A stretch of DNA of 54,810 nt from Gammaproteobacteria bacterium. GTDB taxonomy: Bacteria > Pseudomonadota > Gammaproteobacteria > Thiohalomonadales > Thiohalomonadaceae. Where the stretch lies: contig JADGBN010000005.1 in the NCBI GenBank assembly GCA_015231435.1, positions 1-54,810 of the forward strand, read 5' to 3'. The stretch's first letter is position 1. Every line of letters begins with the position of its first letter. The notes below the pieces were generated by a model. That model was given only the letters and a program-made list of their open reading frames with translations. It was not told where the DNA came from and made no database searches. The position numbers and the translations under genes are program-made. Positions 1-16,075 of the stretch are shown one piece after another.

Positions 1-382
1 TGTGCCGGAGATTCTGAAAATGGCAAATTCGCCGCTGGGACAGCGCTGGTTAAAACGGGTGGTGGTGGAGGGTTATACCGACGCACGCGGCAGCTATCTC
101 TATAATCTTGACCTGTCGCAACGTCGGGCGCAGGCGGTGATTCATGCGCTGCTGACGCGTGGCGAGACGACTCTGAGTTTAGAGGAGCTGGCGGAGGTGG
201 AGCGGCTCTTTATGGTGGGTGGTTTTTCAAGTCACGCGCAGTTGGCGACCGCCGAGGCGAGTCGGCGTGTCGAGTTACGCCTTGATTTTAAAACCTTGGC
301 AGAGCAGGGCGCGACGGATGCGGCAGAGCGCCTTAGTGACGATCTGCAGATCGGGCAGTGTCTTGAGGTGGCAAGCCGCTAA
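1..382 (+). CDS. OmpA-family C-terminal domain protein (5' partial)
   Basis: The reading frame is already open at the left edge, so only the last ~126 codons are present. The visible part resembles the peptidoglycan-binding OmpA/MotB C-terminal domain: a VEGYTDARGS stretch, then LSQRRAQAV, and a late RRVEL motif match the conserved 'GHTD..G....N..LS..RA..V......RRVE' pattern of the family. Such domains anchor outer-membrane or periplasmic proteins to peptidoglycan. Signal peptide and N-terminal domain lie outside the window. The GTG at position 2 is probably an internal codon. It converges with the aldehyde dehydrogenase gene, 16 bases away. Confidence 0.7.
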   Translation, partial: VPEILKMANSPLGQRWLKRVVVEGYTDARGSYLYNLDLSQRRAQAVIHALLTRGETTLSLEELAEVERLFMVGGFSSHAQLATAEASRRVELRLDFKTLAEQGATDAAERLSDDLQIGQCLEVASR

Positions 383-398
383 AGCTATGCCGTTAACA

Positions 399-1763
399 CT
401 ACCCGATCCAGACCGTTTTACAGTTAACGAAGGCGCGAATGCCAAGCTCTGCAAGTTCGCGCCCGTAGCCTGAATCCTTCACTCCGCCAAAGGGGAGACG
501 TGGGTCGCTTTTGACCATGCCGTTCACAAAAGCCGAACCGCATTGCAACTGGCGGGCGAGACGTTCGCCACGCTCACGGTCACCGCACCAGACGGAACCG
601 CCAAGGCCGAAGCGGCTCTGATTGGCGACCTGTAGCGCTTCGCGTTCATTATTAACGCGAATCACCGTAGCGACTGGGCCAAAGAGCTCTTCATGCCACG
701 CCGCCTGCTCGGGGGTGACCCGATCAATGAGGGTCGGTTGGTAGAAAAATCCCGCCCGCTTTACCGAATCCCCACCGACGATTAACTCGCCGCCATGAGC
801 GAGAGAGTGAGCGACTTGCTGCGCCAGTGTGTCACGCAAGTCGCCACGCGCCAGTGGCGCCAGGGTGGTGTGGCGATTCAGCGGATCGCCTGTTCGCAAC
901 GCCGCTATGGCAGCGGCAAAGGCGCTGACAAAGCGGTCGGCGATTGACTCAATCACAATAAAACGTTTGGCGGCAATGCAGCTCTGCCCGCAGTTAATAA
1001 AGCGTGAGCGCAGCGCCTGCGTGATGGTGAACTCAAGATCTGCATCTTCAAGCACAATAAAGGGATCAGCACCGCCTAACTCAAGCACCGCCGGTTTTAA
1101 TGCGGCAGCCGCAGTGGCGGCAATCTGCCGCCCGACGCTGGTCGAACCGGTAAAGGTGACTGCAGCAATTCGCGGGTCACCAATAATTCCCGCCACCGCA
1201 GTGGCGCTAACCGGCAGATTAATCAGCACCCCATCGGGAAAACCGGCGCTGCAGAAGAGGGAGGCGATGTTCGCGGCGCTGCGCGGTACATTGCTGGCGT
1301 GTTTAAGCAGCACCGTATTGCCCGCCGCCAGCGCCGGTACCGCAGCACGAAAGAGCTGCCAGAGGGGAAAGTTCCACGGCATAATCGCCAGCAGGGTGCC
1401 GAGGGGTTGATAAGTGAGGTAACTGCGTTGTGCATCACTGCTAACCGAGGTATCCGCAAGTTGTGACGCAGCGTGCTCAACGGTGTAGTCGCAGAGGGTG
1501 GCGCACTTATCCACCTCTGCCTCCGCTTCGCCAATTAATTTCCCCATCTCTTCGCTAATGGTGAGCGCGAGTTCGTCGCGGCGACGGCGAAGATTGGCAG
1601 CAACCCGCTGCAGATGTTCGCAGCGCATCTGTAGCGGCGTGTTACGCCAGATCGGCACCGCTGCTGCGGCACTTTTGAGTGCACGTTCAATCTTCTCGGC
1701 GCCCCACTGTTCATAGGGCGGTAAGGGTTCGCCATTGGCGGGATTGAGTAAAGTGATTTTCAT
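399..1763 (-). CDS. NAD(P)-dependent aldehyde dehydrogenase, succinate-semialdehyde dehydrogenase-like
   Basis: The 454-residue product has the usual ALDH-superfamily layout: the PWNFPLWQ motif of the cofactor domain, FTGSTSVGR for nucleotide binding, the LELGGADPF segment carrying the general-base Glu, and GQSCIAAKR carrying the catalytic Cys. Length and motifs are closest to the short NAD(P)-dependent succinate-semialdehyde dehydrogenases (GabD/Sad type), which oxidise an aldehyde to the acid in the cytoplasm; the exact substrate cannot be read from sequence. It is transcribed divergently from cca with a 71-base gap. No clear Shine-Dalgarno precedes the ATG, but the start fits the family N-terminus. 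Confidence 0.85.
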   Translation of the reverse strand: MKITLLNPANGEPLPPYEQWGAEKIERALKSAAAAVPIWRNTPLQMRCEHLQRVAANLRRRRDELALTISEEMGKLIGEAEAEVDKCATLCDYTVEHAASQLADTSVSSDAQRSYLTYQPLGTLLAIMPWNFPLWQLFRAAVPALAAGNTVLLKHASNVPRSAANIASLFCSAGFPDGVLINLPVSATAVAGIIGDPRIAAVTFTGSTSVGRQIAATAAAALKPAVLELGGADPFIVLEDADLEFTITQALRSRFINCGQSCIAAKRFIVIESIADRFVSAFAAAIAALRTGDPLNRHTTLAPLARGDLRDTLAQQVAHSLAHGGELIVGGDSVKRAGFFYQPTLIDRVTPEQAAWHEELFGPVATVIRVNNEREALQVANQSRFGLGGSVWCGDRERGERLARQLQCGSAFVNGMVKSDPRLPFGGVKDSGYGRELAELGIRAFVNCKTVWIG

Positions 1764-1834
1764 GGTGGTTATCGTCGCTCAGGGGAGATGGCTTCTATAA
1801 TACCGCAGCCTTAACTGTGAGAGGAGTTTGAAAC

Positions 1835-3058
1835 ATGCAGGTTTATCTGGTCGGTGGCGCGGTGCGCGACAAATATCTTGGAATCGCCCCGCGAGATCGT
1901 GACTGGGTGGTGGTCGGTAGTACGCCAGAAGAGATGCTGGCGCAGGGCTTTCGTCAGGTTGGCGCAGATTTTCCTGTCTTTTTGCATCCACAAACCCATG
2001 AGCAGTACGCCCTGGCGCGCACCGAACGTAAGTCGGGGCCGGGCTATCACGGTTTTATCTGCCATGCTGAGCCAACGGTCACCCTAGAGGCAGATCTGCT
2101 GCGCCGTGATTTGACGATTAACGCTATGGCAGAGGCGAGCGATGGCACGCTTATCGATCCCTATGGTGGTTTGAGGGATCTGCAGCAGCGGCAACTGCGC
2201 CATGTCTGTGCGGCGTTTGCGGAAGATCCGTTACGTATTTTGCGTGTCGCACGTTACGCGGCGCGTTACCACCATTTGGGTTTTGAGGTTGCCGCTGCGA
2301 CGCAAGCGCTAATGGCAGCGATGGTTGCTGCGGGAGAGGTCGATAGTCTGGTTGCCGAACGGGTCTGGCAGGAGAGTGCCGCAGCACTGGCGGAGCCAGC
2401 GCCGCAGGTCTATCTGCAACAGTTGCGCGGTTGTGGCGCTCTGGCGGTGATCTTTCCCGAAATAGATGCCCTCTATGGCGTACCGCAGCCGCCACATCAC
2501 CATCCGGAAATAGATTGTGGTCTGCATACCGAAATGGTGCTGGCGCAGGCGGCGGCACTTTCGGATGATTTGGCAGTCCGTTTTGCGGCGCTGCTGCACG
2601 ATTTGGGTAAGGCAACCACCGATCCAGCACTATTGCCGCGTCATATCGCCCATGAAGAGCGCGGTTATCTGCTGGTGCAGCAGCTCTGTAAGCGGTTAAA
2701 GGTGCCGCGTCAGCTGGCGGAGCTTGGCGAGCTGGTGGCGCGTTATCACGGTCTCTATCACCGTGCTGCCGAGCTGCGCCCGGAGACGCTGTTAAAACTG
2801 CTACAGCAGCTCGATGTCCTGCGCCGGCCGCAGCGACTTAATCAGTTTTTGCTCGCCTGCGAGGCAGATTCACGGGGTCGCTTAGGTTTTGCGGCGGGGG
2901 AGTATCCGCAGGCGTCAATAATTCGTCGCGCCTATGATGCGGTAGTTGCGGTGGAGGTGGAAAAGTTGCTTGCCCAAGGATTTTCTGGAAAAGCGTTAGG
3001 TGAGGCGCTACAGCAGCAGCGGGTGCGTGCCATTGCTGCTGCTTTAAAGGCAACGTAG
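1835..3058 (+). CDS. cca: CCA-adding tRNA nucleotidyltransferase
   Basis: This enzyme adds or repairs the 3' CCA end of tRNAs. The 407-residue product opens with the class II nucleotidyltransferase signature: VGGAVRD, then RDRDWVVVG with the metal-binding acidic residues, then the [10 protein letters not shown] motif. A C-terminal HD-type segment (AALLHDLGK, residues ~250-262) is present, as in the E. coli-type bifunctional or multifunctional CCA enzyme with phosphatase/phosphodiesterase activity. A good ribosome site (GAGAGGAG) lies 8-9 bases before the ATG. It stands alone, divergent from the aldehyde dehydrogenase gene. Confidence 0.95.
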
Positions 3059-3075
3059 CAGGGATTTCTGCAGAA

Positions 3076-3099
3076 CCGTTCGCCCTGAGATGTCGAAGG
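3076..3099. repeat. Short REP-like palindrome after cca
   Basis: The 24-base stretch has the form CCGTTCGCCCTGAG followed by TGTCGAAGG. It resembles a short intergenic repeat (TTCGCCCTGAG...TGTCGAAGG) common in many proteobacterial genomes, and its ends TTCG/CGAA are inverted. Only one copy is visible here, so its status as a family member is inferred from memory of the motif. It lies 18 bases downstream of the cca stop. Confidence 0.35.
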
Positions 3100-3236
3100 T
3101 TAGGATGAGGTGTTGAAAAAGACGGGGATCTGAACTGTTACTTTGGCACAACCATTGCTTTAATTGTTTGGTGTGAGTTGTTGGGGCGCACTGTTGCGCT
3201 GTTTTTTATTCCTGTTGCTGTGGTGAGTCACCATTG

Positions 3237-6200
3237 ATGAAAACGATGACCGTTGCCCGACTGCTGTCGCTGCCTCTCTTGCTACTGCTCTCTTTTGGCG
3301 CCATGAGTGCCGAGGAGACGGTTGATGCGCTGGAGATTGTCTTTATTGATACGCAGGATGAGGATAGCGTGCCAGAGCAGGCGAATCTGCGTGGGGCGCG
3401 ACTCTTTATTGATGAGTTTAACCGGCGTGGTGGTCTTAATGGCAAGCCGGTGCTGCTTAAGCGCTACAACGACTATGGCGACAAGGATAAGGCAAAGGCA
3501 CTGGCGCAACAGATTGTCGATGAGCATCAGGCGATAGCGGTGATTGGCCATGACTACAGTTCGACCTCCATTGCCGCAGGGCCGATCTATGCCGCTGCGG
3601 GGCTGCCGATTATCACCTACAGTGCCACCAATAACCGCGTGACGCTGGATAATGAGTGGTTCTTTCGTACCATTTTCAATGATGAGGCACAGGGGAGTTA
3701 TCTGGCCAATTTTGCGGTTAACGTGCTACAGCAGCAGCGGGTGACGGTCGTAAAGAGCAGTGACGCCTATGGCGATTATCTTGGTACGGTATTTGCCGAT
3801 AGTGCGAAAAAGTTAAAAACTGAAGTGGATAAGGTTCACATCTACGATGGTGATCAGGATGGCCCAAGCCAGGCGCGAGCCATTATGGAGGCGATTCGTG
3901 CCCGTGGCGATCAGGCTGGTCTGATTTTTATGGCGATGTATGGCGAGTATGCGGTGCATCTGGTGCAGGCGTTTCGTGATGTCGGGATGAAAAATCCGCT
4001 TATGGGGGGCGATGCGGTCGCCGGTAATGATTTTACCGATGGTTTTAAGGATCTGCCCGCAGAGAAGCGCCGTCCCGGCTTTTACAGTGACGGTATCTAT
4101 GTCACCGCACCGATTAACTTTGATGCCGCCAATGCCGATGCACAGCTCTTTAAGAGCCGTTATCTTGAGAAGTATCACGAACTCCCCGACTGGAATGCCG
4201 CCTATGCTTATGACACCGCCAAGGTGCTGGTGGAGGCGATGATTCAGGGGGAGATTACCGGTGACCGTGAAAAGCTGGTGGCGGAGCGGCGGCAGTTACG
4301 GGCGCAACTGGCAAAATTTAATGCCCCCGATACGGCGATCCCCGGGGTGACCGGTCTTAACTACTTTGATGCCAATGGTGATGTGAATAAACCGATAGCG
4401 GTAGCGATTTATAATAATAATGTCCTAGTCTCCAGTATGGTGCACTATGAGGTGGTACCCGATATTGGTGAAGTGATTGATATTGCCGGGCAGCGTGAAA
4501 TGGGGTACATCATCGATGTTAACGGGCAGCCGATGTATCGTAAAAACCTAGTTTTTACCGGGGTGAAGATTAATCAAATTGGCCCCTATGATGAGCAGGC
4601 GGAGAAAATCACCCTTGATTTCAATATCTGGTTCCGCTTTCGTGGGGATTTCAAGGCAGATGATCTGCGCTTTGAAAATGCGGTTGATGAGTTGAAGTTT
4701 GGCGATCCGACAGAGCGCAGTGACGATGGCGAAACACGCTATCGTGCCTACCATATTAAGGGTGACTTTCGTACTAACTTTGTCCAGAGTCGTGTCCCTT
4801 TGGGGGAGCATGCCGTGGGGATCACCTTTCGCAATCGCCAGTTAAACCGTAACACGATTATCTATGTAAACGATACGATTGGCATGGGGGTGAATAGTGC
4901 CGTTCCTTTGGTCGATCGCGTTAAACATAATCTGCCGCTTGGCCAAATTGATAACTGGCAAATCACCAATGCGATAAGTTATGAGTCGATAAAATTGGTC
5001 GATACCCTAGGCAGACTTGAGTATCTTAATAACCGCACGGCCCAGGTTGCCTACTCCAACTTTAACTTTATTATCTATTTACAGAAGAGCCATCTGACGC
5101 TGCGGGGATCGATTCCCCAGGAGTACAGTAGTGAGATGGCGATCTTTAGCGGTGCACTGCTGCTGTTGCTGCTGGTGTTGCGTAAAGTAAAGCGCCTGCA
5201 ACGGTTGCGCACCCTCTTCTGGATAATGGAGTTTGCCCTCTATCTGCTGCTGCTGGTGAGTGGCGAGATGTGGTTAATTGATAACTACCTGACCTATCAA
5301 GATCCCTATCTGCAGCAGATAGTGATGAATATTATCGATATGTTGTGGTGGATTTTTCCCGCTCTTCTGATTGTCGATGCGCTGGAGATCTTCTTCTGGA
5401 AGCCGTTGGAACATAGTACGGGGCGTACCATTCCCGGGGTGGTGCGCGGGATTATTGCTGCGATTATCTATACCCTGGCCTTTTTCGCTATTCTCGCCTT
5501 TGTGTTTGATCAAAAGCTGACGGGCTTAATGGCCACTTCAGGTCTGATTGCGATGATTATCGGTTTGGCGATTCAGGTAAACCTGTCAAATATTTTCTCG
5601 GGTATTGCGCTAAATATCGAGCACCCCTTTCGTGTCGGCGACTGGGTGAAAATCGGTGATCATGAGGGTGAGGTGATCGATATTAACTGGCGTGCGACCC
5701 GTATTCAGACGCGCATCAAGCATCTTATTAGTATTCCCAATACGCCGGTGGCGGATGCGCCGATTATTAACTACAGCGCCTACGGTTATGCACGCTTGCA
5801 GATGCCGGTGGCGATACACCCCTCGCATCCACCGCTGAAGGTGAAAAAGATAATTCTGGAGTCACTCTACTCTCTGTCGGATGTCTTGCGTGATCCCTGC
5901 CCAAAGGTCTATTTTCATGGGCTGATCTCCGGTATGGGCAATTATCAGGTGATCTACTCCTTTGCTAGATTTGGCGAACGTAACCGTCTTGAGGAGATTG
6001 TCTGGGTACGGATGTCGGAGTATTTGCAACGTGCCGGTATTACCTTTACCACGCCGCAGTCGCGTATTGAGCTTAATCAGGCTGAACCTGAAGCGATGAA
6101 AATGCCCACTTTTTCCGAGTTGCTGGAGAAGGTCGATATCTTTAGCCACTTCCCCCCCGAGATCTATCCCCGCATTGTTGAAATGGCGCAGATGCGCAGT

Positions 6201-6701
6201 TATCAGGCAGGCGATTATCTGATTCATCAGGGTGAAGAGGGGAGTTCAATTTTTATTATTGTCAGTGGGGTGATCGCCGTTCATGTGGCTGGTCGCAGCA
6301 GTGATGATACGGCGGGCGGGATGGAGCAAGACGCCCTTGAGGTCGCGCGTTTGGGGATTGGTGAGTCGCTGGGTATTCACTCCCTGCTCTATGCCAAACC
6401 ACGCACCGCCAGTGCTATCGCGGTGACGCCTGTTACGGTTGCTGAATTAGAGCGGGCGGTGCTTATTCCGTTAATGAAAACCTGTCCTGAGGCGCTGAAA
6501 CGGGTGTTGCTATTAAATCGTGATCAGCAACAGAAAACCGATAGTCAAGTGAACGCCCATCAACAGTCCAAGGTTGCCGAGCGGGGTCTCTTTAAGCGAA
6601 TGATGCAGCGGCTTCGCGGTAAAAAGTTAGGCTCTATTAATCGACAGGAGAGTGTGAAGGTGACACCGCGTTTTGATACGGAGAAGAGTGGCGGTGATTA
6701 G
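3237..6701 (+). CDS. Periplasmic ligand-binding domain fused to MscS channel and cyclic-nucleotide-binding domain
   Basis: This 1154-residue protein combines domains rarely seen in one chain. A signal peptide (1-25) is followed at ~30-405 by a type I periplasmic binding domain of the LivJ/branched-chain amino-acid receptor class (GARLFIDEFNRRGG, AVIGHDYSSTS, AYAYDTAKV). A ~200-residue extracytoplasmic linker follows. About four membrane helices span ~634-800, ending in the MscS pore helix (LIAMIIGLAIQVNLSNIFSG) and beta domain (HPFRVGDWVKIGDHEGEV, ~800-950). A cNMP-binding domain (~969-1090) has the GES...RTAS phosphate-cassette pattern, and a basic tail ends the protein. ATG at 3237 is preferred over the TTG at 3234; GGTGAG lies upstream. 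Inference: a ligand-gated, nucleotide-modulated channel in the inner membrane. Ligand and ion are unknown. Confidence 0.85.
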   Translation: MKTMTVARLLSLPLLLLLSFGAMSAEETVDALEIVFIDTQDEDSVPEQANLRGARLFIDEFNRRGGLNGKPVLLKRYNDYGDKDKAKALAQQIVDEHQAIAVIGHDYSSTSIAAGPIYAAAGLPIITYSATNNRVTLDNEWFFRTIFNDEAQGSYLANFAVNVLQQQRVTVVKSSDAYGDYLGTVFADSAKKLKTEVDKVHIYDGDQDGPSQARAIMEAIRARGDQAGLIFMAMYGEYAVHLVQAFRDVGMKNPLMGGDAVAGNDFTDGFKDLPAEKRRPGFYSDGIYVTAPINFDAANADAQLFKSRYLEKYHELPDWNAAYAYDTAKVLVEAMIQGEITGDREKLVAERRQLRAQLAKFNAPDTAIPGVTGLNYFDANGDVNKPIAVAIYNNNVLVSSMVHYEVVPDIGEVIDIAGQREMGYIIDVNGQPMYRKNLVFTGVKINQIGPYDEQAEKITLDFNIWFRFRGDFKADDLRFENAVDELKFGDPTERSDDGETRYRAYHIKGDFRTNFVQSRVPLGEHAVGITFRNRQLNRNTIIYVNDTIGMGVNSAVPLVDRVKHNLPLGQIDNWQITNAISYESIKLVDTLGRLEYLNNRTAQVAYSNFNFIIYLQKSHLTLRGSIPQEYSSEMAIFSGALLLLLLVLRKVKRLQRLRTLFWIMEFALYLLLLVSGEMWLIDNYLTYQDPYLQQIVMNIIDMLWWIFPALLIVDALEIFFWKPLEHSTGRTIPGVVRGIIAAIIYTLAFFAILAFVFDQKLTGLMATSGLIAMIIGLAIQVNLSNIFSGIALNIEHPFRVGDWVKIGDHEGEVIDINWRATRIQTRIKHLISIPNTPVADAPIINYSAYGYARLQMPVAIHPSHPPLKVKKIILESLYSLSDVLRDPCPKVYFHGLISGMGNYQVIYSFARFGERNRLEEIVWVRMSEYLQRAGITFTTPQSRIELNQAEPEAMKMPTFSELLEKVDIFSHFPPEIYPRIVEMAQMRSYQAGDYLIHQGEEGSSIFIIVSGVIAVHVAGRSSDDTAGGMEQDALEVARLGIGESLGIHSLLYAKPRTASAIAVTPVTVAELERAVLIPLMKTCPEALKRVLLLNRDQQQKTDSQVNAHQQSKVAERGLFKRMMQRLRGKKLGSINRQESVKVTPRFDTEKSGGD

Positions 6702-7521
6702 GGATGGCATCAATATCACCAAAGTTGCGTAGCGCTGCATAATCATCATCAGAGGCGGCAGTCATCCCGTGACGGATAGTGCTACCCCATTGACTGTAAA
6801 CCGAGGGCGGGGTGGTTAACAGCACCTCTCGAATGGTCTCCAGCGTGGCGGCATCGAGGGTGGCGCTGTTGCCCGCCAGACCAACCGGCGGAACCGCCGC
6901 TGATTGGGCAATCACCCGAATTCCCAGGGGTGAGTATTTAAGGGCAAACTCATCCTTAACCGTGCCAACATCGACCTGTCCTGCTACCACCGCCCGTACC
7001 ACCTCTTCGTGGGAACCCAAATAGTGGTAGTTGCTCTCTGCAAGGGAGAATCCTGCCTGATCTTTTAATATTGCCTCAGTGACCAGATAACCGCAGGTGG
7101 ACATCTGCATGGTGAGACCAAAGCGCTGCCCCTTTAATACGCTTAACGAAGTGGGTCTCTCATCCAGTGCGGCAATCAGGGCGCAGTGGTAGGTGGCGGT
7201 TCCGTCAGCAGCTTTGAAGAAGACCAGAGGCTCTATTTTTGCGTGGTGTTGGCGTGTTTTAAGGTAGGGGAGGGGGCCGAAAAAGGCGATGTCAATCTGA
7301 TTGTTGGCAAAAGCATCTATCACCTCTTGGTTGCTCTCGTAATAGCTTAAGGTGACGGGGTATTGCAGTTGCAGCTCTAAATAGGCAAGCAGCGGGCTAA
7401 AGTTTGCAATGGTGGTCTCGCGGTTTTCCATGGGTAACGGCGCAAAGCGCAGCGCCTCGACTGCGCTGAGGGGCGCGCCGAAGAGAGTTAGTAGAATGAT
7501 CATCAGTTGGCGATTTTGCAT
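6637..7521 (-). CDS. PhnD-like periplasmic phosphate/phosphonate-type binding protein
   Basis: The product is a ~294-residue solute-binding protein of the PhnD/phosphate-phosphite-phosphonate class. It has a signal peptide (residues ~1-20, MIILLTLFGAPLSA), then the family's 'N...LLAYLE..L.YPV.L..Y.S.QEVI.AF.....DIAFFGPLPYL' pattern. No permease or ATPase gene is adjacent, so it may act as a sensor input rather than in uptake. The start at 7521 is chosen because GGAGGAAG lies 7-8 bases upstream; the earlier TTG at 7539 would sit inside that ribosome site. Its last 65 bases overlap antisense the 3' end of the receptor-channel gene. It follows the chaperedoxin gene on the same strand. Confidence 0.8.
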   Translation of the reverse strand: MQNRQLMIILLTLFGAPLSAVEALRFAPLPMENRETTIANFSPLLAYLELQLQYPVTLSYYESNQEVIDAFANNQIDIAFFGPLPYLKTRQHHAKIEPLVFFKAADGTATYHCALIAALDERPTSLSVLKGQRFGLTMQMSTCGYLVTEAILKDQAGFSLAESNYHYLGSHEEVVRAVVAGQVDVGTVKDEFALKYSPLGIRVIAQSAAVPPVGLAGNSATLDAATLETIREVLLTTPPSVYSQWGSTIRHGMTAASDDDYAALRNFGDIDAIPNHRHSSPYQNAVSPSHSPVD

Positions 7522-7566
7522 GCCCACTCTTCCTCCCAAGGTGATTTGAATCCCCCTGATTTACCG

Positions 7567-8382
7567 TTAATACATGTAGAGCGCCAGTTTGCGTTGGTAC
7601 TGTTTTACTATCGGGTCGTCGCTGCCGATGATGGTGAAGAGTGTGAGCATCGCTTTACGCGCAGCGCCATCACGATACCCCTTGTCGCGCTTAATTAGCT
7701 CAAGAAAGCGTTGCAGCGCCTCTTCGTGGTTGCCGTGAATAACGGCGCAGCAGGCAGCGTTGTAGTCACGATCATTGTCACTCTGCGGCGGCTCCTGCGG
7801 TGGACAATTCTCGCGAAGGGTTTCAATAAAGAGTAGGGATTGGGCGCTGTCGTAGACCTCGCTGCCAAGGCGGATCTCCTGCAGCAGTGCCACGGCACGG
7901 GGAAAAAGTTCAAGGCGGATAAAATAACGGGCAGCGGTGAGTTTGCTGCTGTCACTGCTGTCGTTACTAAGCAGTTTCTCGATGGCGCTGATGGCGGCAG
8001 CGCTATCGCCACTATTGACCACCGCTTCAAGTTCGAGAAGTTGCTGACTCGCCTGGGAGGTCATATAGCGGTCGAAGATTTTGCGTAGTTCAGCTTCAGA
8101 GAGGGCGCCAGAGAAGTTCTCAACCACTCTGCCCTCGTGGTAGATACGCACATCAGGAATACCGCGTACCCCATGTTCCAGCGCCAGTTGCTGCTGCTCT
8201 TCAGTGTTTACTTTGGCAAGCAGATAGCCATATTCCGGGGCAAGGCGTTCAAGCAGCGGTTTTAACTGTTGGCAGGGGTTGCACCAGGGCGCCCAAAAAT
8301 CGACGACAACGTAGTTCGCCGCAGAGCCGTTGATAACCACCTCATTAAAGTTACTGGCATCAATATCAAATAGTTGTGACAT
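7567..8382 (-). CDS. cnoX: CnoX/YbbN-type chaperedoxin (thioredoxin plus TPR)
   Basis: The 271-residue product has an N-terminal thioredoxin fold (residues ~1-110) with active site WAPWCNPC and the cis-proline region RGIPDV. The remainder is a helical TPR-like domain, the architecture of E. coli CnoX (YbbN). That protein protects clients from oxidative aggregation and hands them to GroEL/ES. Unlike E. coli CnoX, which has SxxC, this copy keeps a CxxC pair, so it may also be a true thiol-disulfide reductase, as in Caulobacter-type homologues. It belongs to a minus-strand redox cluster with the glutaredoxin at 8744 and the small gene between them. Confidence 0.85.
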   Translation of the reverse strand: MSQLFDIDASNFNEVVINGSAANYVVVDFWAPWCNPCQQLKPLLERLAPEYGYLLAKVNTEEQQQLALEHGVRGIPDVRIYHEGRVVENFSGALSEAELRKIFDRYMTSQASQQLLELEAVVNSGDSAAAISAIEKLLSNDSSDSSKLTAARYFIRLELFPRAVALLQEIRLGSEVYDSAQSLLFIETLRENCPPQEPPQSDNDRDYNAACCAVIHGNHEEALQRFLELIKRDKGYRDGAARKAMLTLFTIIGSDDPIVKQYQRKLALYMY

Positions 8383-8408
8383 TTATACTCCTCTTGCGCA
8401 GCGCGGGA

Positions 8409-8690
8409 TTAGAAGTGTGATTTATTCATCACCTTGTTAATATCGATAAGGGAGCGTCCGGTACTCGACTCCAGAACAATATCCCCCTGAAGATCATAAA
8501 GGCGTGCCATCGCATGGGCTGCACGATAGGCGCCCATCTGCGTTTCGGCAGAGGAGATATGGGTGACGTTGCCAAGGCTGTTGTAATAGACAATATTCCA
8601 CTGTCGGCTACCCGATCTCTGAATCCGCAGCGGCCACTGAATAAACTCATTTTTGTCATTGTATTCGTCTTCATCGTCGTATTCATTCAT
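8409..8690 (-). CDS. Small acidic protein of unknown function
   Basis: The 93-residue product is not recognised. It begins with an acidic run (NEYDDEDEYNDKNEF) and continues with a compact, probably beta-rich region (WPLRIQRSGSRQWNIVYYNS) and a helix (AYRAAHAMARLYD). No signal peptide or membrane segment is seen. It sits between cnoX (26 bases) and the glutaredoxin gene (53 bases) on the same strand, suggesting co-transcription. An overlapping frame (8429-8686) gives a less protein-like sequence and was rejected. The ribosome site is weak. Confidence 0.55.
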   Translation of the reverse strand: MNEYDDEDEYNDKNEFIQWPLRIQRSGSRQWNIVYYNSLGNVTHISSAETQMGAYRAAHAMARLYDLQGDIVLESSTGRSLIDINKVMNKSHF

Positions 8691-8743
8691 GTTGATGGCT
8701 CAAAGTAGCTTCTGTTAGCGGGGAGAGAGGGGCTGCACCGGGC

Positions 8744-9004
8744 TTATTGCTGCGGCAGCAGGCTATCGAGTTCACCATCCATATGCAGCTCGGTCAGTTC
8801 ATTAAAGCCGCCTATCCATCTTCCATCAATGGTAATTTGCGGTACCGTGCGGGCATGGTTGCTAATCTCCAGCATCTCTTTTAATGCCGCCCGATCACTA
8901 TCTACCATCTTCTCAAGATAAGGGATGCCCCATTTGCGCAGCAGCTGTTTAGTCTTGTCACAAATGGGACAGGTGATGGTGCTGTAAACGGTCACTCGGG
9001 GCAT
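8744..9004 (-). CDS. Glutaredoxin (CPIC active site)
   Basis: An 86-residue monodomain glutaredoxin: VTVYSTITCPICDKTKQLL carries the redox CxxC near the N-terminus, TVPQITIDG carries the cis-proline, and IGGFNEL matches the glutathione-binding GG segment. It reduces disulfides or glutathione mixed disulfides in the cytoplasm. The start is placed at the ATG at 9004 because GGAGAG lies six bases upstream; an upstream TTG at 9016 lies before that site. It is divergent from the sulfur-globule gene with a 323-base gap, and heads the minus-strand redox cluster. Confidence 0.88.
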   Translation of the reverse strand: MPRVTVYSTITCPICDKTKQLLRKWGIPYLEKMVDSDRAALKEMLEISNHARTVPQITIDGRWIGGFNELTELHMDGELDSLLPQQ

Positions 9005-9113
9005 ATATCTCTCCAAAGGCGGTGAAGCTGTGGGCTAAAGATGGGGCGCATGATGGTTATTTCTACCGTTTTCCCATAGAACTTTTTAATGCTTGCAATA
9101 AGCCAAAGTTATC

Positions 9114-9142
9114 ATGAATTATGCAGATTACCAATAATTCAT
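9114..9142. promoter_or_regulatory. 9-11-9 inverted repeat upstream of sulfur-globule gene
   Basis: ATGAATTAT at 9114-9122 and ATAATTCAT at 9134-9142 are exact inverted copies separated by 11 bases. The centre is about 125 bases upstream of the predicted transcription start of the sulfur-globule gene and about 125 upstream of the glutaredoxin start. It could be an operator for a dimeric regulator or an RNA hairpin. No known regulator is recognised. Confidence 0.4.
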
Positions 9143-9217
9143 AAGGATAGCAAAATAAGTTAAGGCAGCTTAGATGCGCTGACGCAGTTTTGCCCGCAGC
9201 GGAGTCGATAGGGAGGG

Positions 9218-9246
9218 TTGACTTCTATATTAGCATTCGCTAAATT
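9218..9246 (+). promoter_or_regulatory. Putative sigma-70 promoter of the sulfur-globule gene
   Basis: TTGACT (9218-9223) and TAAATT (9241-9246) are separated by 17 bases, close to the sigma-70 consensus. The start would fall near 9253, leaving a ~75-base leader before the ATG at 9328. The ribosome site AAGGGA precedes the ATG by about 9 bases. Confidence 0.5.
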
Positions 9247-9327
9247 ACTAACATCGTTACAGCCAGACGTGGTTGCAGCGTGTTATAAAGTTCTTTAATC
9301 CACGTAATCCACAAGGGAATAAATATC

Positions 9328-9765
9328 ATGAAAAACGTTGTGAAAGTTGCCGCAGTTGCTGCGCTGTTAAGTGCTTCGATGCTCACCATGCAGTCGGCTA
9401 ATGCCTTTTGGGGCCCTTTTGATAATGACGATTGGGGTAATAACAATAACGGTTGGGGCAACAATAACTGGGGCAATAACGGCTGGGGAGACGGTTTTGG
9501 TGACGCCTTTGGCGACATGATGGGCGATGGCAATTTTGATATGAACTTCAGCGCTCGTGGTAACGGACGTGGTAATGGTCGCGGCTATGGCAACGGTTAT
9601 AACGGCTACAATGGTTATAACGGTTACAACGGCTATAATGGCTACAACGGTGGTTATGCACCTTACTATGGCGCGCCCTATGGCTATCCACAGGCACCTT
9701 ACGGTTATGCACCTTATGGGGCGGTACCTCCTGCACCGGTAGCGCCAGCTGCACCAGCCAAGTAA
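9328..9765 (+). CDS. Sulfur globule envelope protein family
   Basis: The 145-residue product has a cleavable signal peptide (residues 1-26, ending SANA) and a low-complexity mature chain rich in Gly, Asn, Tyr and Trp: WGNN repeats, then GRGN, then about six GYN repeats, then PYGYAPYG and a Pro/Ala tail. This composition and layout match the structural sulfur-globule proteins (SgpA/SgpB type) of purple sulfur bacteria, which coat periplasmic sulfur globules during sulfide or thiosulfate oxidation. There is no enzymatic domain. It has its own promoter and a strong terminator, so it is monocistronic and could be highly expressed. Assignment rests on composition, which is weaker evidence than a folded-domain match. 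Confidence 0.7.
9592..9654 (+). repeat. In-frame 9-bp tandem repeats coding GYN units
   Basis: Roughly six to seven near-identical 9-base units (ggYTAYAAYg pattern) encode repeated Gly-Tyr-Asn in the sulfur-globule protein. Third-position differences between units show that the repeat is not freshly expanded. Such arrays can change length by slippage without breaking the frame. Confidence 0.7.
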
Positions 9766-9819
9766 GTTGTGTGATAACAAATCGGTAATCCTCCTCTGAA
9801 CGGGTGATGGATTACAGAT

Positions 9820-9858
9820 AAAATGGCGATGCTGCTTAAGTGTCGCCATTTTTTTTTA
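9820..9858 (+). terminator. Rho-independent terminator of the sulfur-globule gene
   Basis: A perfect 10-bp stem (AAAATGGCGA at 9820-9829 with TCGCCATTTT at 9843-9852) with a 13-base loop runs into a T tract. It separates the sulfur-globule gene from the malic enzyme gene. A second 7-bp hairpin (9785-9815) lies just upstream. Confidence 0.85.
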
Positions 9859-9892
9859 TGGCGTATGTCCCTTGGATACAAAGAGAAGATAA

Positions 9893-11200
9893 ATGGTTGA
9901 AAATGATGGTTTGCGCGATGCGGCACTTGCCTACCATTGCCAAGATCGGGCGGGCAAGTTGGCAATTAGGGCAACCAAACCGTTATCTGGGCCGAACGAG
10001 CTCTCTTTAGCCTATTCGCCAGGTGTGGCCTACCCCTCGCTGGCGATTGCCGCCAACCCCGCTGCTGCAGCAACCTATACGGCACGCAACAATCTGGTCG
10101 CGGTGATTACCAATGGCACGGCTGTATTGGGCTTGGGTGATATTGGCCCGCTCGCTGCCAAACCGGTGATGGAGGGTAAGGCGGTTCTGTTTAAGACCTT
10201 TGCAGATATTGATGTCTTTGATATTGAGATAGACGAGCGTGACCCGCAGCTTTTTATTGATACCGTGGTGCGTTTGCAACCGACCTTTGCAGGGATAAAT
10301 CTTGAAGATATTGCCGCGCCGGAGTGCTTTACCATCGAGGAGGGGCTGCGGCAGCGACTCTCGATTCCGGTATTTCATGATGATCAGCATGGAACAGCGG
10401 TGGTGGTGGCGGCCACGGTAATTAATGCGCTTTACTATACCGGCAAGCAACTCGACAGTGTAAAGCTGGTGGTTTCAGGTGCCGGCGCGGCGGCGTTAGC
10501 CTGCTGCCAGCAGCTGCTGGCAATGGGGTTGCCGCAGGGGAATATCACGGTTTGTGACGCCGCGGGGGTAATCTACCGAGGGCGACGTGAAAGGATGAAC
10601 CATTATAAGGCGGCCTTTGCTGCTGATACCGACGCTCGCACCCTTGCCGAGGCGTTGCAGGGGGCTGATATCTTTCTCGGGCTCTCGGTCGCCGGTGCGC
10701 TACAACCGCAATGGCTCGCTGCGATGCGTGACAAACCGCTGATTATGGCGTTGGCGAATCCGCAGCCGGAGATCTTGCCAGCGCTGGTGCAGGCGGTGCG
10801 TCCCGATGCGTTGGTCGCCACCGGGCGTTCAGATTTTGCCAACCAGGTAAATAATGTCCTCTGCTTCCCCTTTCTTTTTCGTGGGTTGCTCGATGCCGGG
10901 GTAAGTACAGTTGAGCGTTCGCTACTAACGGCTGCGGCCCATGCGATTGCCGGATTGGCGCGACGTTCGCCACTACCTGAAGTGGAGGCGCTCTATGGTA
11001 ACGTCTCCCTGGCGTTTAATGGTGATAACCTCATCCCGAAACCCTTTGATCCGCGCCTGCTGGAGGAGGTGGCGGCTGCGGTTGCCGAGACGGCGATGGC
11101 GCAGGGTATTGCCGCGCGTCCGCTTCAGGATGTGACTTCTTATCGGCAAACGTTGCGCCAGCTGGGTTGGGCACTTTTTACGCAGCGGCAACAAGGTTAA
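9893..11200 (+). CDS. Malic enzyme, short form (malate to pyruvate + CO2)
   Basis: This 435-residue enzyme oxidatively decarboxylates malate to pyruvate with NAD(P). Visible features are [10 protein letters not shown] and [25 protein letters not shown] of the malic N-domain, [11 protein letters not shown] with metal ligands, HDDQHGTA, and the Rossmann segment [13 protein letters not shown]. It lacks the ~320-residue C-terminal phosphotransacetylase-like domain of E. coli MaeB, so it is the short bacterial form. It is followed 32 bases later by the secreted hydrolase gene. Cofactor preference cannot be assigned safely. Confidence 0.92.
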
Positions 11201-11232
11201 TTCTGTAACTGTTCTGTAAAAGGAGATAAGTC

Positions 11233-12027
11233 ATGTGTAAGAAAAAAATAGGGCTGCTGCTACTGCTACTTCTGCCGCAACTCGTGGCTGCGCGGGCGGT
11301 TGTGTTAATTCAGGGTTTTCATGGGTATGGTCATGAGTGGCGGGATAGTGGCGTAGCTCATGTGCTGTTGGCCAATGGTTGGGCGGATGGTGGCCATCTT
11401 TTTGACACCCCCTTGTCACCCTTCCAGATTGGCGTGACTGGCCGAGAAGATCAGCTCTTAGGAGATAATTTTTACACCCTGTCGCTACCGTCAGAGGCGC
11501 CGCTTCTGGTTCAGTTAACCCCGTTGGTACAGACCGTTGCGCGCATTGCCAAGCGTCATGAGGGTGAACCCTTGGTATTGGTCGGGCACTCGGTAGGCGG
11601 GCTTTTGGCACGCCTTCTGGTTATCTACCATCCAGAGATTAAGGTTGCGGCGGTGGTCACCATTGCCACTCCCCATTTAGGCGCTGCACTGGCGGAGGTC
11701 GGGGAGTTTGTCGGAGATACGCCGTTAGGCATGATGGCGCCGATGTTCGGCGCGGACTCGGTAAATCGGGCTAACCGTCTGCTTGGGGAGATTGGCCGTG
11801 AAGAGCCTGGTATGCTGCTTTTTTGGCTTAATCGTCAACCCCATCCGGCGTTACGCTACATTTCGCTTATTCACATGAGTGATAGTGTAGTAGCGCGTTA
11901 TAGTCAGGATATGAATCAGGTACCGGCGCTTGCCGGACGTGCCGAGACGTTGACAACCTATGGGGGGCATTCGCTAAATATTAGTGATGGTCACCTGCTT
12001 GCGGGTATTTTGGCGACCATCAATTAG
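11233..12027 (+). CDS. Secreted alpha/beta-hydrolase (lipase/esterase-like)
   Basis: The 264-residue product starts with a signal peptide (KKKIGLLLLLLLPQLVAA), then an alpha/beta-hydrolase fold. The oxyanion region IQGFHGYGHEW is followed by a nucleophile elbow GHSVGG (~residue 120) and the TIATPHLG segment typical of PGAP1/lipase-like hydrolases. A late GGHS... histidine completes a plausible triad. It is predicted to act in the periplasm or outside the cell on an ester; the substrate is unknown. An AGGAG ribosome site precedes the ATG. It may be co-transcribed with the malic enzyme gene. Confidence 0.75.
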   Translation: MCKKKIGLLLLLLLPQLVAARAVVLIQGFHGYGHEWRDSGVAHVLLANGWADGGHLFDTPLSPFQIGVTGREDQLLGDNFYTLSLPSEAPLLVQLTPLVQTVARIAKRHEGEPLVLVGHSVGGLLARLLVIYHPEIKVAAVVTIATPHLGAALAEVGEFVGDTPLGMMAPMFGADSVNRANRLLGEIGREEPGMLLFWLNRQPHPALRYISLIHMSDSVVARYSQDMNQVPALAGRAETLTTYGGHSLNISDGHLLAGILATIN

Positions 12028-12035
12028 CGGCTTGT

Positions 12036-12049
12036 TTGATGCACATCAA
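12036..12049 (+). promoter_or_regulatory. FNR/Anr binding site upstream of the peroxiredoxin gene
   Basis: TTGAT-GCAC-ATCAA is an exact match to the FNR consensus (TTGAT-N4-ATCAA). Its centre at 12042.5 is about 60-61 bases upstream of the start predicted from the adjacent sigma-70 promoter, which is the standard class I activation position. FNR homologues sense oxygen through a [4Fe-4S] cluster. The functional link to this gene is inferred. Confidence 0.75.
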
Positions 12050-12067
12050 AAAAAGCGACAATCAGAC

Positions 12068-12096
12068 TTGCACCCCTCGGCGGGCAGGGCTATAAT
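12068..12096 (+). promoter_or_regulatory. Sigma-70 promoter of the peroxiredoxin gene
   Basis: TTGCAC (12068-12073) and TATAAT (12091-12096) are separated by exactly 17 bases. The predicted start is near 12103, giving a ~56-base leader. The -10 hexamer is a perfect consensus. Confidence 0.8.
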
Positions 12097-12158
12097 TCCC
12101 GACAGTTTTTCTTGGTTATATGTCTCGTTAATTTTTATCTACTTTTAAGGAGTAACCG

Positions 12159-12764
12159 ATGGGTGTATTAGTAGGCCGTCCGGCCCCCGACTTTACCGCT
12201 AACGCCGTACTGGGTGATGGTTCGATTGTTGCAAAGTTTAATCTTGCCGCCTCCATTAAAGGAAAGTATGCAGTTCTTTTCTTCTATCCGCTTGACTTCA
12301 CTTTTGTCTGCCCCTCCGAGCTGATCGCCTTTGATCATCGTCTGAAGGAGTTCTCAGATCGCGGTGTAGAGGTGATTGGCGTCTCTATTGACTCCCACTT
12401 TACCCATAACGCATGGCGTAACACCGCAATTAATGATGGTGGCATCGGTCCGGTAAAATATGCGCTGGTGGCTGATATTAACCACCAAATCTGTAAGGAT
12501 TATGATGTTGAGCACCCAGCTGCTGCGGTCGCCTTCCGCGCCTCTTTCCTGATTGACCCTAAAGGGGTTGTGCGTCATCAGGTGGTGAATGATCTGCCAC
12601 TGGGACGTAATATTGATGAGATGCTGCGAATGATTGACGCCCTGCAATTTACCGAAGAGCATGGCGAAGTCTGCCCCGCTGGTTGGAAGAAGGGTGATGC
12701 AGGAATGACGGCGACAATTGATGGTGTTGCCAAGTATCTTTCTGAGCATGCCGACAAGTTATAA
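12159..12764 (+). CDS. Typical 2-Cys peroxiredoxin (AhpC/TSA family)
   Basis: The 201-residue enzyme reduces hydrogen peroxide or organic peroxides. The peroxidatic Cys is in the conserved DFTFVCPSE motif (~residues 46-54) and the resolving Cys in GEVCPAGW near residue 170, as in typical 2-Cys dimers or decamers. It has no signal peptide, so it is cytoplasmic. AAGGAG lies 7-8 bases before the ATG. It is a single-gene unit with its own consensus promoter, an FNR box upstream and a strong terminator. The reductant (thioredoxin or a glutaredoxin) is not shown. Confidence 0.95.
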   Translation: MGVLVGRPAPDFTANAVLGDGSIVAKFNLAASIKGKYAVLFFYPLDFTFVCPSELIAFDHRLKEFSDRGVEVIGVSIDSHFTHNAWRNTAINDGGIGPVKYALVADINHQICKDYDVEHPAAAVAFRASFLIDPKGVVRHQVVNDLPLGRNIDEMLRMIDALQFTEEHGEVCPAGWKKGDAGMTATIDGVAKYLSEHADKL

Positions 12765-12814
12765 TTTAACTCTTCAGGGCAGTAGGCTATATTAGCCTTG
12801 ACCGCTCGGGTTAA

Positions 12815-12850
12815 AAAGGAAGGGGGGCGAAAGCCCCCCTTCTCTTTTTT
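12815..12850 (+). terminator. Rho-independent terminator of the peroxiredoxin gene
   Basis: A GC-rich stem, GAAGGGGGGC paired with GCCCCCCTTC around a GAAA tetraloop, is followed by CTTTTTT. It lies about 50 bases after the stop codon. Confidence 0.9.
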
Positions 12851-12906
12851 AAAAGTTGCCCAGCGGTTGTTAGCTACTTTTGTCACCACTGAGGGGGAGA
12901 ACGCGG

Positions 12907-13041
12907 ATGAGTCTATTTAAGAAAACAGTCGCCTGCACAGGGTCATTTTCCTGTCGCTTTAGAGTGGCAATTTTTTTAACCCTCCTGCTGGTGCTATCAG
13001 GTGTTCTCGCGGTGGTCTATCTGTTTAATTTTTCACCCTAA
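12907..13041 (+). CDS. Small single-span membrane protein (44 residues)
   Basis: A short ORF starts at ATG 12907 and ends with TAA at 13039-13041. A strong ribosome site (GAGGGGGAG) lies 7 bases before the ATG. The product has a basic N-terminus (MSLFKKTVAC, later CRFR) followed by one hydrophobic helix of about 21 residues (VAIFLTLLLVLSGVLAVVYL), so an N-in single-pass membrane protein is expected. It has no recognised family. Its stop lies four bases from the convergent stop of the anti-sigma-like gene. The good ribosome site and membrane-like sequence favour a real gene, but no homology evidence is available. Confidence 0.5.
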   Translation: MSLFKKTVACTGSFSCRFRVAIFLTLLLVLSGVLAVVYLFNFSP

Positions 13042-13045
13042 GACG

Positions 13046-13651
13046 TTAAGGCGCAATCACCGTTAACCAGTGGTTTGGCAGAGTGAAATCGGGATAGTGC
13101 TGCTGAAATAGTTTAATGGCCGCTGCTGCCTGAGTTAGTTCACCTGCATCAATTAGGGCGTTAATCTGCTCTATCGCTGCGTCTTGAGCTACATCACGCG
13201 TTTTTTCAATTTTTTTGTCACTGCTTTGCGCTGCTTCATCCAGCACTGCATTAGATGCAGGCATCGCAGGTACGGCGCGCAGCAGCTGTGGCGCGGCGGC
13301 AGGCGCTGCGACTAGCGGCGCACTTTTGGCGCGATCCTCTGTTGTCATGCTCTCCCGGGGAGCGGCCATCTCACTGCTTAGCGCTGCGGGGGCTAGATCT
13401 TTTTGCGTCAGCTGCTGCCACTGCTCTAGGGTGAGGGAGAGTCCCATGACGAGAAGTGCGGCGGTCGCTAAAGAGATCGGCCAGCGTGAACCTCTGCGCG
13501 GTTTGTTTTGCTTGCTAATGGCGGCAGCTGCCTGTTGGCGAATGGAGTCGTCAAGATGGGGCGAGGGCGTCTCACAGCGACTCTGTTGATAGAGGGCGTG
13601 GATCTCTGCTGCCTTGGGGATGTCGGCAAACTCATTTTGTGAACTCATCAT
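13046..13651 (-). CDS. Putative membrane anti-sigma factor
   Basis: The ~201-residue product has a cytoplasmic N-terminal region with a short helical segment, one membrane helix (WPISLATAALLVMGLSLTL, ~60-80), then an Ala/Pro-rich extracytoplasmic stretch and a C-terminal helical domain. It lacks an obvious HxxxCxxC zinc anti-sigma motif. The role is inferred from position: its ATG overlaps the stop of the upstream ECF sigma gene (ATGA), a typical sigma/anti-sigma coupling, and AGGAG lies five bases before that ATG. Confidence 0.6.
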   Translation of the reverse strand: MMSSQNEFADIPKAAEIHALYQQSRCETPSPHLDDSIRQQAAAAISKQNKPRRGSRWPISLATAALLVMGLSLTLEQWQQLTQKDLAPAALSSEMAAPRESMTTEDRAKSAPLVAAPAAAPQLLRAVPAMPASNAVLDEAAQSSDKKIEKTRDVAQDAAIEQINALIDAGELTQAAAAIKLFQQHYPDFTLPNHWLTVIAP

Positions 13652-14187
13652 AGACACTCCTGCAATTTTTCCCGTAGCTGCTGCATAGCGTAACGCAGAC
13701 GGCTTTTAATGGTTTCGCGTCCTACTGCGAGCAGCGAGGCGATCGCTTCAAGTGTTAGGTTGCTCTCCTCCTTTAGCAGAAAAACATCGCGTTGCAGCTG
13801 CGGCAGATCTTTAATCGCAGCAAGTAGTTGCTGCTGGCACGTCTGGTCGTGATGTACCTTCTCGGCGCTGGGGGCGGTTGCTTCTGCCGCCAGGCTATCC
13901 TCACTGCCGACAACTCTTAAGCGTTGTTTGCGCTGGTGGTCAATAGAGAGATGACGGGCAATTTTAAAAAGATAGGCACGAAACAGCCCCTGAGTAAAAG
14001 GTTCGCTGGCACTAATGACCCGCGACCAGCAGTCATGGTAGAGATCTTCCGCTTCACTGCGACTGCCAAAGGTGCGTAACAGGTAAAGAAAGAGCGATTG
14101 ACGGTAGCGTGCATAGAGGCAGTCAAAGGCGCGCATATCCCCTTGTCGGTAGCGGCCAAACAGTACTTCATCCTCCTCTTCACTCAT
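13648..14187 (-). CDS. ECF-type RNA polymerase sigma factor
   Basis: The 179-residue product has region 2 (FDCLYARYRQSLFLYLLR...EAEDLYHDCW, ~20-60) and region 4 with a helix-turn-helix (LPQLQRDVFLLKEESNLTLEAIASLLAVGRETIKSRLRYAMQQLREKL, ~125-175). These are the hallmarks of sigma-70 family ECF factors. It is followed by, and translationally coupled to, the membrane protein at 13046-13651. The VWA lipoprotein gene lies upstream on the same strand after a 112-base gap containing a strong hairpin. Target promoters are unknown. Confidence 0.88.
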   Translation of the reverse strand: MSEEEDEVLFGRYRQGDMRAFDCLYARYRQSLFLYLLRTFGSRSEAEDLYHDCWSRVISASEPFTQGLFRAYLFKIARHLSIDHQRKQRLRVVGSEDSLAAEATAPSAEKVHHDQTCQQQLLAAIKDLPQLQRDVFLLKEESNLTLEAIASLLAVGRETIKSRLRYAMQQLREKLQECL

Positions 14188-14230
14188 TGCTAACGCTCGG
14201 TAATGGTTTTGCGCATTGTAGCCTGAACAA

Positions 14231-14280
14231 CGCCCGGTTGGGAGTCGGGTTAGCAGCGACCCTGCTCCCTCGTCCGGGCG
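14231..14280. other. Three-tier hairpin between VWA and sigma genes
   Basis: The stretch folds as nested stems: 7 bp (14231-14237 with 14274-14280), 5 bp (14240-14244 with 14265-14269) and 4 bp (14247-14250 with 14259-14262) around an 8-base loop. Neither side is followed by a T tract, so it is not a classical terminator. It could be an mRNA-stability or partial-attenuation element between the VWA lipoprotein gene and the sigma gene. Confidence 0.45.
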
Positions 14281-14299
14281 GTGTCCGTTTAATGCAACG

Positions 14300-16012: not shown

Positions 16013-16075
16013 GACGATCTCCTTAGGGTTGAGTAACTGTTCGTAAAGGAGAACGGATGGGATCGGCAAAAGGGG

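Follow-up and report, generated by a model that had tools for sequence, protein, structure and literature searches.

The protein encoded at positions 3237-6701 of the DNA analyzed here (54,810 nucleotides, hereafter the window) is probably an amino-acid-gated MscS channel whose sensor is the complete one of a Cys-loop-type receptor from bacteria, i.e., a type-I periplasmic binding domain (PBP) followed by a receptor-type extracellular domain (ECD), and that arose by replacement of the pore. That is, a sensor of the neurotransmitter-receptor type appears to have moved onto a different pore. Specifically, the region that joins the binding domain to the membrane part, which the initial annotation had taken for a long linker, is instead a folded, highly conserved domain and a true homologue of the extracellular domain of Cys-loop receptors (pLGICs).

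Domain architecture of the window protein

The gene is one intact open frame of 1154 amino acids that starts with the ATG at 3237 (an in-frame TTG lies just upstream) and stops at 6699-6701. Its features are as follows, with residues numbered along the window protein:

3237..6701, + strand: complete gene, encoding signal peptide, PBP-I, pLGIC-type ECD, five-helix MscS channel and cNMP-binding-type domain
3237..3308, + strand: signal peptide, residues 1-24 (read from the sequence: hydrophobic core, then A-x-A)
3318..4424, + strand: type-I periplasmic binding domain of the LivJ/LivK class, residues 28-396 (Pfam, phmmer against PDB, Foldseek)
4524..5114, + strand: extracellular beta-sandwich domain of the pLGIC/Cys-loop-receptor type, residues ~430-626 (profiles, hhalign, AlphaFold2, Foldseek)
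4791..4811, + strand: Pro-loop equivalent (beta6-beta7), RVPLGEH with P521; the YPxD of true pLGICs is absent
5118..5420, + strand: TM1-TM3, residues 628-651, 658-685 and 690-728 (AlphaFold2), unrelated to pLGIC M1-M3
5436..5609, + strand: TM4 (734-756) and pore helix TM5 (761-791, GLAIQVNLSN), of the MscS type (AlphaFold2, alignment with YnaI/MscS)
5583..5777, + strand: MscS beta domain (PF00924; MS_channel_2nd, residues 783-847, Pfam E 1.3e-20)
5790..6089, + strand: MscS C-terminal alpha/beta domain, residues 852-951 (YnaI alignment up to 951)
6195..6482, + strand: cNMP-binding-type domain, residues 987-1082 (Pfam cNMP_binding, E 9.1e-14)
6363..6416, + strand: phosphate-binding cassette ESLGIHSLLYAKPRTASA, with Arg1056 kept and the conserved Glu replaced by Ile1047

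The unbroken 1154-residue frame, the LivJ/ANF-receptor-type binding domain, the MscS channel with its beta domain and the cyclic-nucleotide-binding domain had all been proposed by the initial annotation, and all four held up, with significant Peripla_BP (Peripla_BP_6, 5.3e-32, residues 48-356; ANF_receptor, 2.4e-16) and MscS matches and every Pfam match in the protein above its curated cut-off. The signal peptide is likely cleaved after AMSA. Among solved structures, the best sequence matches are to LivJ-type proteins at the N-terminus, to YnaI/MscS over the membrane and vestibule modules (residues 639-951, E 5e-18) and to PKA/PKG regulatory domains at the C-terminus.

The draft genome consists of 223 contigs, and unrelated genes could in principle have been joined by an error of assembly or annotation. 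However, the same domain order recurs in many genomes at 31-51% identity. Full-length examples are L006 from the same genus (51%), L007 from a single-contig, 4.07-Mb genome within the family, L010 from Desulfobacterales bacterium HSG16, L011-L013 and L016, and the layout also occurs in other families of the class. Hence, a frameshift or assembly join between the domains is excluded, and we give such an artefact a negligible chance. A scan of genome contigs with the single protein returned one relative only and was replaced by a multi-genome search.

Identity of the extracellular domain

In the full-length alignment of 15 rows, the stretch between the PBP and the membrane is the best-conserved part of the sensor, with eight of the 21 invariant columns falling in the ECD (W465, F466, R467, N481, F511, D546, G592 and S607, each invariant across 15 MscS-fused proteins). 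Two further proteins (L014 and L015) carry the ECD followed by four membrane helices with a weak Neur_chan_memb match, and a linker profile run against 369 genomes of the class recovered stand-alone proteins of 330-375 amino acids in addition to the fusions, one of which (L038) is a homologue of GLIC (5.6e-16). To avoid circularity, a second profile was built from the MscS-fused linkers only, with no pLGIC rows; of nine stand-alone pLGICs, it matched seven at 2e-10 to 1e-3 (Z = 1e6) and the remaining two at 0.1 and 0.4, whereas the top-scoring of 1000 shuffled control sequences came in at about 780. Consistent with these results, hhalign gave 99.3% over 167 columns.

The AlphaFold2 model of the ECD, based on an alignment of MscS-fused rows only, is a beta sandwich (pLDDT 85.9, pTM 0.82), as in the ligand-binding domain of pLGICs. 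When this model was searched against PDB with Foldseek, the top 50 matches listed were all Cys-loop receptor ECDs or AChBPs, including GABA-A and nicotinic ECDs and acetylcholine- and glycine-binding proteins (best E 2.2e-9, prob 1.00, ~200 aligned columns). The TM-scores were mostly 0.50-0.63, and the ECD is therefore a diverged member of the pLGIC group. A direct sequence search of PDB with a 12-row ECD profile found no match up to E = 10, and Pfam Neur_chan_LBD had no match in the window's own genome, a search that carries no information since its controls gave none either; the link required intermediate sequences and structure. It is the profile, hhalign, AlphaFold2 and Foldseek results taken together that identify the linker as a pLGIC ECD, and since this domain is invisible to Pfam here, such proteins would be annotated only as MscS or binding proteins.

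The MscS pore and the missing Pro-loop motif

AlphaFold2 predicted five membrane helices after the ECD (with low pLDDT for the pore helix); the four-helix M1-M4 pore of pLGICs is absent, and the pore helix and beta domain of the MscS superfamily are present in its stead. MS_channel_3rd was matched in two relatives (L010 and L018). A remnant of pLGIC M1-M3 in TM1-TM3 was considered and rejected, the hhalign probability of 0.2% against a pLGIC TM profile being the same as for reversed and block-shuffled controls. In one MscS-cNMP fusion (L019, G051:C308), ECD and TM1 are separated by a further hydrophobic segment of ~90 residues, which probably represents additional membrane helices.

In pLGICs, the Pro loop has been described as belonging to the contact between ECD and pore, with the proline at the beta6-beta7 tip more strongly conserved than any other site of the superfamily (PMC4795631). 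The motif [YFW]P[FLV][DE] was found in 20 of 20 four-helix proteins vs. none of 35 MscS-fused ones, a comparison of rows that are related by descent and hence do not represent independent events. The proline alone survives in 11 of the 35 MscS-fused proteins, including the window protein (P521), and Gly is the usual residue at the Asp position. Since both the pLGIC pore and the conserved Pro-loop motif are absent, we class the family as a variant in the MscS superfamily and not as a pLGIC.

The missing YPxD loop could also be taken to mean that the ECD is a degenerate spacer and that only the PBP and the cNMP domain regulate, i.e., that the protein is a bCNG-type channel with a flytrap, given that the fusion of MscS with a cNMP domain is already a known type (bCNG, cited in PMC4560390). 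We find this very improbable, since eight ECD residues are invariant across 15 MscS-fused proteins and one protein (L037) retains ECD, MscS and cNMP domains without the PBP; further, the site of the window protein that seems to have degenerated is that of the cNMP domain (below).

Distribution of the family and probable direction of the proposed pore replacement

Sorting by five home-made domain profiles divided 59 ECD proteins, some of which are cut by contig or locus ends, into PBP-ECD-MscS (20), PBP-ECD-MscS-cNMP (13, the four-domain layout surveyed across genomes), PBP-ECD-four-helix (12: L014, L015, L053 and nine more), ECD-four-helix (8), ECD-MscS with or without cNMP (3), and proteins with no detected pore domain (3). 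No protein with both pore types was found among the 59 with these profiles. The two kinds do occur together in one genome (G051), with MscS fusions L011 and L019 and the four-helix protein L053, and the window's own genome encodes a paralogue without the cNMP domain (L002, PBP-ECD-MscS). Five ECD matches are present in the genome of Desulfobacterales bacterium HSG16 (G385, L055-L059), where contig C366 holds two fusion genes within ~6 kb and one copy (L059) has an in-frame TAA.

The PBP+ECD tree (46 rows) shows one pore change, with split support of 98/95, and in the ECD tree rooted with stand-alone pLGICs the MscS-fused rows form one clade (99/93). This clade lies within a grade of PBP-pLGICs in the best tree, but a tree that unites the PBP-pLGICs in one clade is not significantly worse (AU p = 0.31), and hence it is the single origin of the MscS fusion that is firm, rather than its exact sister group or its nesting. 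With one PBP+ECD sensor common to two unrelated pores, the trees indicate common descent of this sensor and that of ligand-gated channels. The simplest direction would be the replacement of the four-helix pore by MscS, since pLGICs in general have a four-helix pore.

Candidate ligand of the binding domain

The binding domain has both the fold (best Foldseek match 4gnr, TMt 0.85) and the amino-acid contact residues of LivJ-type PBP-I proteins. Of what we take to be the LivJ contacts (2liv S79, T102, Y150, Y202 and E226), the first four are all kept (S108, T131, Y178 and Y235, respectively) and the last is D259. Based on these retained contacts, the most likely ligand of the window protein is an amino acid or a small solute resembling one, and a ligand-gated channel with its sensor outside, as proposed initially, is still the best reading, although the gating itself is inferred. 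The PBP is not an amino-acid sensor throughout the family, however, since the S79 and Y150 equivalents are mostly gone in the MscS-fused clade without the cNMP domain; the paralogue L002 may accordingly have another ligand or none. In that clade (L060-L079), the ECD is kept, most LivJ-type ligand residues are gone, and many members have an ECD insertion of ~35 residues.

Alternatively, the protein might be a tension-gated osmotic release valve like YnaI/MscS, with the PBP and ECD only setting the tension threshold, anchoring the channel or plugging the pore rather than acting as the principal trigger. The membrane part is indeed closest to YnaI/MscS and retains a hydrophobic pore helix as well as both the beta and the alpha/beta domain, the Pro-loop coupling motif is gone, and the paralogue clade just described retains the layout without the ligand residues. 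Nevertheless, we regard the valve as unlikely: the S79 and Y150 equivalents are retained in 12 of 12 cNMP-bearing relatives as well as in the window protein, conservation within the shared sensor is highest in the ECD, and that sensor descends from the same source as that of ligand-gated channels.

The neighborhood fits solute sensing but shows no conserved operon. A PhnD-type solute-binding protein gene (PF12974, 2.8e-49; 6637-7539, - strand) converges on the channel gene, its open frame overlapping the 3' end by 65 bp. Among relatives, TRAP transporter genes (DctM and two DctP; L027, G051:C128, 4000-7964) adjoin an MscS-cNMP fusion gene; an SBP_bac_3 protein with a peptidoglycan-binding domain is encoded divergently from fusion gene L007 (L026, 9192-12820), and the gene after it codes for STAS and cNMP-binding domains and begins like a permease; and a TAXI/NMT1-type binding protein lies near another relative (L020). 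Similarly, PBP-II genes have been noted next to bacterial pLGICs (Tasneem et al., PMC549065). When the loci were compared, the neighbors varied and no conserved neighborhood was found, and no ABC importer gene was seen among the neighbors in window positions 1-16069, most of them judged by eye, while one could be located elsewhere. The L002 paralogue (L002/L023, G000:C169) adjoins type VI secretion genes (VipB, DotU) and lies beside genes resembling a type I secretion set. The window also encodes (9328-9765, + strand) a small low-complexity protein that looks secreted and has a high content of Asn, Gly and Tyr, with NNWGNN and GYN repeats.

The cNMP-binding-type domain

An MscS channel with a C-terminal cNMP-binding domain, as in bCNG, is present, parts of this domain having low confidence in the AlphaFold2 model, but the intact Glu and Arg cassette of the bCNG type is not: the ribose-binding Glu is replaced by Ile1047 and Arg1056 is retained. 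The Glu is canonical in 11 of 14 family members, with L037 and the closest relative of the window protein, L006, degenerate as well. L037 (G251), the ECD-MscS-cNMP protein without PBP, shows the same Glu-to-Ile change. A cyclic nucleotide is probably made in the cell, as judged from several class III cyclases encoded in the genome; nine class III nucleotide cyclase matches (L089-L096) are present in this 2.9-Mb genome (G000). Of the nucleotide sensing inside the cell that was proposed at the outset, the domain thus stands, while modulation of the window protein itself is doubtful.

Proposed mechanism and relation to known channels

In the amino-acid-gated channel that we favor, a small amino-acid-like solute would close the bilobed PBP domain, which would change or rearrange the ECD. 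The last ECD strand (603-617) leads within ~10 residues to TM1 (628), and it may pull TM1, shift the MscS helices and thereby open or close the pore. In most cNMP-bearing relatives, cAMP or cGMP on the cytoplasmic domain may tune gating, the site of the window protein being partly degenerate. In evolutionary terms, an MscS channel would have taken the place of the four-helix pore of a PBP-pLGIC on one occasion, after which the contact of the Pro loop with the former pore would have decayed.

As in the PBP-I-fused bacterial ART-LGIC/pLGIC proteins (Tasneem et al. 2004, PMC549065), the N-terminal PBP-I stands directly before the Cys-loop-type domain, and both domains are homologous. Unlike these proteins, with their four-helix pore and Pro loop, the window protein has an MscS pore, has lost the Pro loop and has gained a cNMP-type domain. 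The ECD fold is shared with GLIC and the animal Cys-loop receptors, but not the M1-M4 pore or the Pro loop, and compared to YnaI/MscS, a large periplasmic receptor part and a cNMP domain are added. The C-terminal arrangement is that of the bCNGs, the bacterial cyclic-nucleotide-gated MscS channels (Caldwell et al. 2010, cited in PMC4560390). The replacement of the cassette Glu sets the window protein apart from them. We know of no bCNG that carries a PBP or a Cys-loop-type ECD.

The initial annotation had also seen a functional parallel to ionotropic receptors. The receptor-like character stands, but with respect to Cys-loop receptors it is more than a parallel, the ECD being a true homologue. 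With respect to ionotropic glutamate receptors, the bilobed binding domain outside the channel is alike, and yet there is no parallel by descent, since these receptors have a different pore and a different second sensor domain, and their channel part is not related by descent.

PBP-pLGIC fusions (2004) and bCNG channels (2010) are already known, and what is apparently new is the Cys-loop-type ECD on an MscS pore; no report of an ECD-MscS, MscS/Cys-loop or MscS/PBP fusion was found in the open-access papers searched, although one may exist elsewhere. As far as we have found, the Cys-loop sensor had been described only in combination with the four-helix pore that belongs to it or, as in AChBP, by itself.

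Cys-loop receptors are the classic channels of fast neurotransmission, and the PBP+ECD sensor on a mechanosensitive-type pore represents a natural chimera. Since pLGIC ECDs are pentamers and MscS channels are heptamers, the chimera poses a sharp structural puzzle. We lean, somewhat less strongly than for the reading above, toward a distinct class of ligand-gated channels in which a Cys-loop-type sensor gates an MscS pore following one pore replacement, with the conflict between five-fold and seven-fold symmetry resolved in some way. If this is true, a receptor ECD is able to drive a pore unrelated to its own. Two long-standing questions become testable with this family, namely, to what extent ECD-to-pore coupling is specific, with a Pro loop that decays upon the pore swap, and which natural stimuli are detected by prokaryotic pLGICs and MscS paralogues.
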